DNA from: a virus
Length of the DNA stretch: 45,833 nucleotides
Strand: one strand, 5' to 3'
Virus record (IMG/VR): IMGVR_UViG_3300046656_000050
Span: 1-45,833 of that record
The notes under the pieces were generated by a model, which was not told where the DNA came from, ran no database searches, and saw only the letters and a list, made by a program, of their open reading frames with translations. Each line of letters opens with the position of its first letter. Position 1 is the first letter of the stretch. Positions 7,658 through 45,833 of the stretch are shown one piece after another. The position numbers were made by a program, and so were the translations under genes.

Positions 7658-7692
7658 AATGTATCCTTTCTGTTTTTTAGATTAGTTCAAGT

Positions 7693-7762
7693 AGAATCAC
7701 TAGACTGTTGTGTCTTTAGACACTGGAATAATTGGTCTCATTATAAAGTGTCTAGTGATTCT
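7693..7762. promoter_or_regulatory. Inverted 13-bp pair around the SNF2 promoter (candidate operator)
   Basis: AGAATCACTAGAC (7693-7705) is the exact reverse complement of 7750-7762; centres are 57 bp apart. The right arm lies in the spacer between the -35 and -10 elements of the leftward promoter, the left arm in the untranslated leader. As the expected transcript starts near 7733, both arms cannot be in that RNA, so a DNA-binding regulator acting at two sites is more likely than an RNA hairpin. A further small dyad GTGTC/GACAC lies between them (about 7710-7723). Confidence 0.55.
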
Positions 7763-7769
7763 AATTCAA
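7740..7769 (-). promoter_or_regulatory. Candidate sigma70-type promoter for the SNF2 helicase
   Basis: On the minus strand, TTGAAT (7764-7769) is followed after 18 bp by a perfect TATAAT (7740-7745). This places the start near 7733 and leaves a leader of about 75 nt before the helicase ATG. Confidence 0.55.
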
Positions 7770-7930
7770 CCAAACTAAAATTGCAGAATATTGACATACT
7801 AGGCTATCCGTCTACTGCTTGGGTTTAGTGCGCCTAGACCTTTTATTAAATCAAGTAGTATCAAGTGATGTTATCTATCATTTGAATCTCCTTTCTATTG
7901 CCGAATTGCAGTAAATTCATATTTAAATCT

Positions 7931-8477
7931 CCGTGTTCACTTGAAAATGTTGGTTAATTAGGATTGAATGAGTAAGTATTGTGTTCTTCTAATGTGGTAC
8001 TCCGGGGTTACTCCGGGGGTTAACTGACTTGGTTTGGCGACTGTAAGCCTCACGTTTGCCTAGGGTTACGGCTGTCGGCACTCGGTGACTCCCTGCCTAT
8101 GCCTTCAGTATACACCCCATGTCAAGTGTGTCGGTTTGACCACAGGTGTCCTGTTTAGGTGACATGGGCAAGGGGTGTGCCATAGTATGTATATATATAG
8201 TACATATATATATTATCATACTCTTTTCACATTTTCTCTCCTGTGTCCACTTACGGTGACACTTTTGGATCGGGTTCATGGGCACTCTATCACCGGAATA
8301 GATGTATACCCTAATGGCAAGGACGGCGGTAAGTCCTTTCGTTGCAACGGGTTACGGCGTTTCCCGTGCCGTGATTCGGGCCCGGAGTAACCCCGGAGTA
8401 CCACATTAGAATCCCTGAATACCAGACAGTTAAAGGTAGATTAACCAACATTCCACATGAACAAAAAGTGAACACGG
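7931..8477. ncRNA. Nested inverted-repeat region: candidate large structured RNA (or replication origin)
   Basis: Three pairs of arms close on one another: 7931-7942 with 8466-8477 (12 bp), 7947-7959 with 8440-8452 (13 bp), and 7987-8017 with 8381-8411 (31 bp, perfect). The 363 nt inside fold further by eye: 8112-8124 with 8160-8178 (7+6 bp, one bulge), an ACAGG/CCTGT hairpin inside that loop, an AT-rich hairpin at 8184-8222, a GTGT-CAC/GTG-ACAC hairpin near 8242-8262, and AAGGAC/GTCCTT near 8320-8338. The long arm holds TACTCCGGGG twice. The nested design resembles large phage RNAs such as GOLLD or ROOL in kind, but I recognise no family consensus. Strand is unknown. A replication origin is the main alternative. 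Confidence 0.5.
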
Positions 8478-8490
8478 CAATTGAATAGAT

Positions 8491-8535
8491 AAAAGAATAC
8501 TTCCTTGAGTATGATTGAAGTGGAAGTACTCTTTT
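8491..8535. terminator. Bidirectional hairpin terminator candidate
   Basis: AAAAGAATACTTCC (8491-8504) pairs with GGAAGTACTCTTTT (8522-8535) with one mismatch, loop 17 nt. A-runs and T-runs flank the stem on both strands, so it can act both ways. It lies 11 nt after the stop of the kinase-like gene on the minus strand and just right of the nested repeat region on the plus strand. Confidence 0.65.
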
Positions 8536-8546
8536 ACGTGTTCAAT

Positions 8547-9938: not shown

Positions 9939-10124
9939 CTGTGGTGAAACTACCACGGTCAAGCTTTGCCGTCAACCGAACAGACTAGCAGGCGAGATAC
10001 CGTGATAGTCTATTAACCTTTCGGCCTGATTGATAACCTAGACTCACTAGAGAGTCTTAATACCTTGCAATTGAATGCAAGCATAAATCAGGTTTGCCCT
10101 ACTTGGTTAATCTTGAATTCTCCT

Positions 10125-10163
10125 TTCAAAATGTTTAGACGACCGAAAACTCAAAAGGTTCAA
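10125..10163 (-). repeat. TTTAGACG direct repeat, copy 1 (possible promoter)
   Basis: 35 of 39 bases match copy 3 at 10833-10871. On the minus strand it reads TTGAAC, 18 bp, TCTAAA, a weak sigma70-like layout, followed by an AAGGAG that has no start codon behind it. It lies between the 73-aa gene and the 151-aa gene. Confidence 0.6.
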
Positions 10164-10226
10164 ACTGAAAACTTGCTCGTAAGCTTGAATCAGAAAGACT
10201 CAAGCTTACTGGTAAGCATTCACTTT

Positions 10227-10247
10227 GCCGTTCAAAATGTTTAGACG
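10227..10247 (-). repeat. TTTAGACG direct repeat, copy 2
   Basis: Twenty of 21 bases equal 10829-10849 (core GTTTAGACG). On the minus strand it spans the stop codon of the 73-aa gene, whose last codon and TAA are read from GTCTAA. Only the proximal half of the longer repeat is present. Confidence 0.6.
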
Positions 10248-10462
10248 TGATAGCTTGGAAAAAGTTCCCCCTGCATTTCGTCGGTTTCCACGATTTCATA
10301 GTTCCACGGCAAACGAAGAGATAGCCAATAGTTTAAAGCACGTTCACGGGTAGTGAACGGAAAAGCATTGAACGGAATGTTCGTTGAACCTTCAGGTCTA
10401 ACCCATACCGTTCTTTTAAGGGTAGACTTGGATAGAACTGGAAAATAGGCAATCATGCACAT
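10241..10462 (-). CDS. Hypothetical protein, 73 aa
   Basis: The ATG is preceded by GAGG eight bases upstream, which overlaps the stop of the 24-aa gene. A segment FTTRERALNYWLSLRLPWNYEIVETDE suggests one helix and a terminal strand. No recognised domain. Its stop codon lies in repeat copy 2. Confidence 0.6.
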   Translation of the reverse strand: MCMIAYFPVLSKSTLKRTVWVRPEGSTNIPFNAFPFTTRERALNYWLSLRLPWNYEIVETDEMQGELFPSYHV

Positions 10463-10828: not shown

Positions 10829-10871
10829 GCCGTTCAAAAAGTTTAGACGCCCGAAAACTGAAAAAGTTCAA
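10829..10871 (-). repeat. TTTAGACG direct repeat, copy 3 (possible promoter)
   Basis: The longest copy. On the minus strand it offers TTGAAC (10866-10871), 18 bp, TCTAAA (10842-10847), upstream of the 57-aa gene whose start is 50 nt away. The same layout in copy 1 suggests a shared promoter or regulator site rather than chance. Confidence 0.6.
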
Positions 10872-10895
10872 ATGCTTTTTGAATGCTTTGCCATA

Positions 10896-11461: not shown

Positions 11462-11591
11462 TACTTATGGATTCTTTATATACTACTTATGGATTCTTTA
11501 TATACTACTTATGGACTACTTGTGTACTACTTATGGACTATTTATATACTACTTATGGACTACTTATAACTCTTTACGGACTACTTATGCC
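11462..11591. repeat. 22-bp tandem iterons (five good, one degenerate copy)
   Basis: Units start at 11462, 11484, 11506, 11528, 11550 and 11571. Units 1 and 2 are identical; all of the first five begin TACTTATGGA and most end TATATAC or GTGTAC. The 22-bp period is about two helical turns, so equivalent faces align, as in replication-initiator or activator arrays. A more diverged unit precedes at about 11437-11458. Open frames through the array merely translate the repeat. Confidence 0.85.
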
Positions 11592-11697: not shown

Positions 11698-11724
11698 TTG
11701 ACCTAATCATAAGGATTATATAAA
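11698..11724 (+). promoter_or_regulatory. Weak promoter-like sequence, rightward
   Basis: TTGACC (11698-11703), 15-bp spacer, TATAAA (11719-11724). The spacer is shorter than the ideal 17 bp. The palindromic pair at 11728-11759 begins four bases downstream, where a repressor could block initiation. Confidence 0.35.
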
Positions 11725-11727
11725 GAC

Positions 11728-45195: not shown

Positions 45196-45357
45196 TCACC
45201 TACTTGAATGTTTAGGGAGGATAGCACTCTCTAACCAATCTACAACTATCTCTAGAGTATCTAGCGTTCTTCCCTCTACCTTCCACTTAAGTACACCGTT
45301 GTCATAGTACTCAGTGTAGAAGTAATCACCGTTCTTGTACATGAATACTGATCTCAT
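45196..45357 (-). CDS. Hypothetical protein, 53 aa
   Basis: The ATG overlaps the HTH gene's stop (TAATG) and the stop is one base before the zinc-ribbon ATG. The product starts MRSVFMYKNGDYFYTEYYDNGVLKW, a beta-hairpin-like sequence, and ends in a helix (LDTLEIVVDWLESAILPK). The precise coupling on both sides supports reality. Function unknown. Confidence 0.55.
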   Translation of the reverse strand: MRSVFMYKNGDYFYTEYYDNGVLKWKVEGRTLDTLEIVVDWLESAILPKHSSR

Positions 45358-45587
45358 TAGTCCTCTGCTCTTTCAAAGCCTTTTGCTTTAACATACTCCA
45401 ATGCTTTCTGATAGGATTCCATTTCCTCTAACCTTGGATAGACACGTAGTGCTGCTGCTAACTTTAGGTCTTGGCAAATCTTACCTATGCTTCGCTTAGT
45501 GTGCGCCGCTACCTCCCTAATTGTGTAATCATTCTTCTTCTTAAAATACTCTATTTCATTAACTTGAACTTGCCATCTGTCTCGCAT
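45357..45587 (-). CDS. Small helix-turn-helix protein, 76 aa
   Basis: Residues about 16-42 (KKNDYTIREVAAHTKRSIGKICQDLKLA) form a helix-turn-helix of the sigma/MerR-like recognition type; a helix-rich C-terminus follows. Likely a transcriptional regulator of the polymerase section. GGGAGC upstream of the ATG. A hairpin precedes it. Confidence 0.6.
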   Translation of the reverse strand: MRDRWQVQVNEIEYFKKKNDYTIREVAAHTKRSIGKICQDLKLAAALRVYPRLEEMESYQKALEYVKAKGFERAED

Positions 45588-45645: not shown

Positions 45646-45774
45646 CTAAGCTTTGAAGCCGGGATCTTCCTCTTCTTCATCTTCTTCATCTTCTTCTGAA
45701 GAATCCTCTTCTTCTTCTTCTTCTTCTTCTTCTTCTTCTTCTACCAGATCATCTTCATCTTCATCTTTAATCAT
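45646..45774 (-). CDS. Very acidic miniprotein, 42 aa, at the circle junction
   Basis: Begins MIKDEDEDDLV, then 12 consecutive Glu, then DSSEEDEEDEEEEDPGFKA; 30 of 42 residues are Asp or Glu. AAAGGCAG precedes the ATG. The Glu run is encoded by a GAA microsatellite, so length may vary or be set by the assembler. A DNA-mimic or an acidic partner for the SSB-like protein (which lacks an acidic tail) is conceivable. The last residues PGFKA echo SGFKG at the end of the SSB-like protein. Confidence 0.6.
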   Translation of the reverse strand: MIKDEDEDDLVEEEEEEEEEEEEDSSEEDEEDEEEEDPGFKA

Positions 45775-45833
45775 TTGCTTTCTGCCTTTTGCTATTTAGC
45801 CTGTTAGTAATTGATTTGGTGGTCATGGCAGGG
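45707..45833. repeat. Terminal direct repeat, right copy
   Basis: Identical to 1-127; see the left copy. Reading across it restores the acidic miniprotein and the intergenic inverted repeat to a single locus. Confidence 0.95.

Follow-up and report, generated by a model that had tools for sequence, protein, structure and literature searches.

Among described replication origins, the nearest known layout to the phage element analyzed here is, by analogy, that of herpes simplex virus, where the UL9 origin-binding sites of OriS and OriL flank an AT-rich spacer in inverted orientation (PMC12543377). A related arrangement is found in phage lambda ori and in the iteron plasmids P1, RK2 and pSC101, in which repeated binding sites for the initiator adjoin an A+T-rich region that unwinds (PMC5043065). 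Helix-phased repeats beside such a region, as seen for the plasmid iterons, are the standard initiator layout of iteron origins, and transcription can activate origins of this type, as it does lambda ori (PMC5043065). Cluster A mycobacteriophages have RNA-based prophage origins, in which a non-coding region of about 400–500 bp starts replication (PMC7157519), and large structured bacterial RNAs such as GOLLD and ROOL have also been described (PMC12286853).

The locus examined here lies at 7.9–8.5 kb in the window, by which we mean the whole 45,833-nucleotide stretch of viral DNA that was analyzed (IMG/VR record IMGVR_UViG_3300046656_000050). We infer that it functions in double-stranded DNA as an iteron-type origin from which the phage replicates, two-fold symmetric and resembling herpes OriS in layout, and we put the probability of this reading at roughly 0.65. 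The likeness to OriS resides in initiator-type sites inverted around an AT-rich centre. The herpes origin, however, has three boxes, whereas the phage family carries up to six 10-bp-phased repeats per arm; the viruses are unrelated, with no UL9 homologue shown, and the symmetry of the phage element reaches about 250 bp each way. Unlike those of lambda ori and the iteron plasmids, the phage arrays are mirrored on both sides, with repeats of about 10 bp, and among the proteins scanned none was recognized as an O, RepA or DnaA-like initiator. The cluster A origins share a non-coding region of similar size, which in the present case is likewise proposed as a replication start, but they need a non-coding RNA beside parABS, whereas here there is neither a strand-specific RNA signature nor a ParA. 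With GOLLD, ROOL and OLE the element has in common a large non-coding region and extensive predicted pairing; it differs in lacking a strand-specific signature and in giving no match to their covariance models even at E ≤ 10.

With respect to genome context, the window carries a 127-bp terminal direct repeat (1–127 and 45707–45833), the record being listed among those without end repeats. Most likely, therefore, the record represents an entire genome of about 45.7 kb in circularly permuted form. Encoded within it are terminase, SNF2-type helicase, UDG–PolA fusion, exonuclease, Sak4-like and primase proteins. The closest annotated phage polymerases share about 27% identity, and a DNA similarity search of annotated phages returned no match.

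Three pairs of inverted repeats frame the element (Table 1). The 12-, 13- and 31-bp pairs, which the first-pass annotation of this DNA had described as concentric, are confirmed: all three are exact and nest within one another. They centre on 8204, 8199 and 8199, respectively, and occupy a gap (7658–8546) that holds no convincing gene. The arms are far above chance expectation; specifically, when the window was simulated 30 times with a first-order Markov model, perfect inverted repeats at a span of 300–600 bp reached 13 bp at most. The terminator-like hairpin reported beyond the right arm is also present, reads as a terminator-like stem in both directions and may shield the element from leftward read-through. 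Absent from the earlier description were the AT-rich palindrome at the axis, the paired 27-bp sites and the occurrence of the same element in related phages. A separate hairpin just upstream of the helicase start (7675–7780) has 31-nt arms that are 87% complementary and holds a leftward promoter-like site, TTGAAT-18-TATAAT.

Table 1. Coordinates of the element's parts and of two other loci in the window.
Feature	Position	Strand	Description
Outermost left arm	7923–7942		12-bp perfect core, 7931–7942
Second left arm	7946–7958		13 bp, perfect
Main left arm	7987–8017		31 bp, perfect; two TACTCCGGGG copies at 11-bp spacing, iteron-like
Left inner site GTAAGCCTCACGTTTGCCTAGGGTTAC	8043–8069		27 bp; centre ~143 bp left of axis; seen in the sequence, same site class scored in relatives
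Leftward promoter-like site CCGACA-16-TATACT	8107–8134	−	Degenerate in the window; near-consensus in most relatives
Left near-core palindrome GTGTCCTGTTTAGGTGACA	8146–8164		Seen in the sequence; related motifs in relatives
AT-rich alternating palindromic core	about 8184–8222		At symmetry axis; relatives have cores too
Right near-core palindrome GTGTCCACTTACGGTGACAC	8243–8262		Seen in the sequence
Right inner site GTAAGTCCTTTCGTTGCAACGGGTTAC	8329–8355		27 bp; centre ~143 bp right of axis; 18/22 consensus positions
Main right arm	8381–8411		Perfect inverse of 7987–8017; two TACTCCGGGG copies as in the left arm
Second right arm	8440–8452		13 bp, perfect
Outermost right arm	8466–8485		12-bp perfect core, 8466–8477
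Two-way terminator-like hairpin	8491–8535		Over 8484–8545, folds at −15.9 kcal/mol on one strand and −18.6 kcal/mol on the other
11-bp direct-repeat array	11462–11589		About 12 copies of unit TACTTATGGAC; non-coding gap at gene-direction switch
76-aa ParB-type helix-turn-helix protein	45357–45587	−	Tentative binder of the repeats; beside PolA

Comparison was made with helicase relatives collected from viral contigs, which are uncultured phages. In about 20 of them an alternating-AT core lies 1.5–4.5 kb upstream of the helicase, with inverted material on both flanks. From the outside in, each side presents short repeats, a TAAGTC...GACTTA-type palindrome of ~27 bp, recognizable in most relatives, and then the core; many relatives also have a GTGTCC...GGACA-type palindrome left of the core. 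The core itself sits at the symmetry axis and measures 45–65 bp, while the outer arrays, of up to six repeats per side, have a 10-bp spacing, with direct copies in the left array and inverted copies in the right one. The element heads a leftward replication-gene operon near the switch between leftward and rightward genes, and its distance from the first rightward gene encoding 100 aa or more is 0.3–3.8 kb in 20/20 genomes, which share ancestry and are not 20 independent observations of position. It is present as a single copy in 21 of 23 contigs, with one extra match in each of the other two. One doubtful case (L056) was excluded from the element statistics.

In the clearest cases the left arm and the inverted right arm align almost without gaps at equal distance from the core (for example, −209..−25 with +29..+215, and −209..−53 with +52..+208), with z up to 33; in four relatives (L034, L054, L030 and L005) the alignment is weak. 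Autocorrelation of the outer arms gave match fractions of 0.365/0.377 at lag 10, 0.319/0.326 at lag 20 and 0.319/0.302 at lag 30, with about 0.25 at other lags. The repeats fall into classes that vary among phages (ACGTGTCGGA, ACTCGGAGGA, AATCTGAGAG and CGTTGTC-like), yet within each phage the two sides agree. Taken with the strand-neutral mismatches, the equal folding of the two strands and the internal outward promoters described below, this layout fits binding sites in double-stranded DNA rather than a conserved RNA helix.

These features correspond to those of iteron-type origins. Multiple short repeats are provided by the 10-bp-period arrays of the relatives, the window having only two per arm; helical phasing is seen in the family peaks at 10, 20 and 30 bp, with the window peaking at 11 bp; and the alternating-AT core at the axis supplies the adjacent A+T-rich region, where unwinding is predicted. 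The promoter that most relatives carry inside the element, its position at the operon head and its usual single copy are further points in favour of an origin. A plausible sequence of events is that a phage initiator binds the repeat arrays of both arms, joining them or bending the DNA, and that the alternating-AT core would then be strained and opened. The internal promoter, transcribing leftward, could help opening or priming, after which the phage primase and PolA would launch two forks. A possible initiator is the ParB-type helix-turn-helix (HTH) protein of 76 aa listed in Table 1, perhaps acting with the neighbouring SNF2-family helicase.

Several observations weigh against the origin reading. 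The window itself has two repeats per arm at 11-bp spacing and a weak promoter, and control of divergent early genes would likewise account for the element's position. The first-pass annotation had named a double-strand origin as the rival to its preferred RNA; the evidence now favours that rival, although the GC-skew check proposed for it gave no support. At fourfold sites we detected no replication signal: coding-strand GC skew is negative on both sides of the element, so the cumulative minimum mirrors gene direction and the test is uninformative.

The identity of the protein that binds the repeats was approached through covariation. Among 31 protein families, the 76-aa HTH protein was the top raw correlate of repeat similarity (r 0.64). 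Across 15 genomes the link had r 0.50, falling to a partial r of 0.31 after phylogeny, with a permutation p of about 0.01 before any correction for testing 31 families; two further families reach equal scores, which counts against this part of the origin reading. In four distant relatives the HTH profile aligns with part of a larger protein, namely the stretch that comes after a ParB-like N-terminal region, and the window protein is thus a stand-alone ParB-type HTH. In comparison with ParB/KorB-type proteins, the candidate is homologous to the segment after ParB_N but is short (about 76–100 aa) and has neither ParB_N nor a ParA partner. A PDB sequence search with the HTH profile yielded chance matches only. 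We propose this protein only tentatively as the binder of the element's repeats. In the helicase relatives G023, G029 and G032 a ParB-type HTH is embedded in reading frames of 410–489 aa, and the G029 copy, scanned against Pfam, contains ParB_N together with an N6/N4 DNA methylase domain.

A bolder proposal, which we consider possible but doubtful, is that the element represents an undescribed class of phage origin, the bacterial-virus counterpart of the herpesvirus layout. Such a class would be defined by full mirror symmetry, phased arrays on both sides of an alternating-AT core, a recognition sequence that shifts jointly on both arms between phages, and a stand-alone ParB-type HTH initiator. 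If the origin reading is right, phages of about 45 kb that form a clade with no close cultured relatives would gain a recognizable origin, together with a naturally occurring set of origin variants whose repeat specificity shifts in step on both arms. This concerted change would make initiator–origin coevolution directly testable.

Of the alternatives, the one that survives best, although we regard it as unlikely, is a DNA regulatory hub. On this view both arms would be bound by a phage regulator, which would form a DNA loop and control the leftward early operon and, in some relatives, a rightward gene diverging from it; the AT core would act as promoter DNA on the upstream side. Most relatives do have a strong leftward promoter (TTGACA-17/18-TATAAT-like) inside the element, at −42 to −116 from the core centre and often scoring above 95–99% of background. 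Rightward TTGACA-17 promoters lie just beyond the right arm in several relatives, operator-like palindromes adjoin the −35, and the element is always near the gene-direction switch. A core of 45–65 bp of alternating AT and as many as six repeats per side nonetheless exceed what a promoter needs. In the window, moreover, the internal promoter is degenerate and there is no rightward gene of at least 100 aa within 3.7 kb.

It is also conceivable, though improbable, that the true origin of the window is the 11-bp direct-repeat array and that the 8.2-kb element is a secondary origin or a remnant. This array could be a competing origin or centromere-like candidate, and its repeat run is longer than those of the element's arms; with about 12 copies in a non-coding gap where gene direction switches, it is a further point against the origin reading of the element. 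In the relatives scanned, however, no clear counterpart of a non-coding 10–11 bp array was found outside the element, while the same repeat scan flagged the element arms in several of them.

The first-pass annotation itself had preferred a new large structured non-coding RNA, transcribed over 7.9–8.5 kb. In favour of this reading, which we now think very unlikely, are RNA fold z-scores of −9.1 and −9.0 for the two strands against shuffles, the retention of pairing by arms that diverge among phages, and the precedent of GOLLD and ROOL. Selection for an RNA helix is nevertheless expected to make mismatches lean toward wobbles on the transcribed strand, and the compensatory-change check revealed no such RNA signature. 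Specifically, arm mismatches in the relatives comprised 39 of wobble type on one strand, 38 on the other and 148 transversions, the latter making up two-thirds, which is the random expectation; interior mismatches comprised 11 and 14 of wobble type on the two strands and 56 transversions. The inner regions also fold equally on both strands (mean z −3.9 and −3.7). A single transcript across the element is unlikely as well, given the outward promoter inside it in most relatives. Rfam gave nothing at its gathering thresholds, and at E ≤ 10 it gave chance-level microRNA-type matches, none of them convincing. The elements are too diverged for sequence alignment to support a covariance model. Taken together, the strand-neutral mismatches, the 10-bp-phased mirror layout and the internal outward promoters favour a DNA site. 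If this reading is right, it also brings a caution: an inverted repeat that spans a long distance and scores excellently as an RNA fold may be an array of protein-binding sites in DNA. Wobble-strand bias and repeat period offer inexpensive ways to tell these apart.

A telomere-resolution, integration or partition site appears highly improbable. Concentric palindromes with an AT centre, the recurrence in bacterial genomes of the inner sites' recombinase-like geometry, the presence of a ParB-type HTH protein and the ending of several contigs at or near the element would all suit such a site. Key enzymes are missing, however, from the 14 genomes searched: protelomerase (PF16684), tyrosine recombinase (PF00589) and ParA-type ATPase (PF13614) were each found in 0/14, which weakens the readings as a telomere, as a tyrosine-recombinase integration site and as a ParA-based partition site. 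Assembly failure at inverted repeats also predicts contig ends, and those of L007, L025, L043 and G023, which terminate in or beside the element, probably arose where assembly broke off at the inverted repeat and AT core. Insertion sequence ends or a MITE are ruled against by synteny in about 20 relatives and by the predominance of single copies.

Apart from the element, a scan of bacterial genomes with the inner 27-bp site found one exact geometry, TAAGTCNTT-N6-CAACGACTTA with its 6-bp gap, in 113 of 134 matches (L120–L228), many of them in Planctomycetota records. Inspection of three genomic contexts did not reveal a function for the site. Contigs labelled Planctomycetaceae (L144) and Rhodobacteraceae (L135) have several site copies between short open reading frames and look phage-like. 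Within the window, a 43-nt repeat (CCTTTCAAAATGTTTAGACG...) occurs three times in the 9.9–12 kb gap, at 10122–10270 and 10830–10872, where it surrounds hairpins, and an inverted partial copy of the TACTTATGGAC array lies at 11708–11726.
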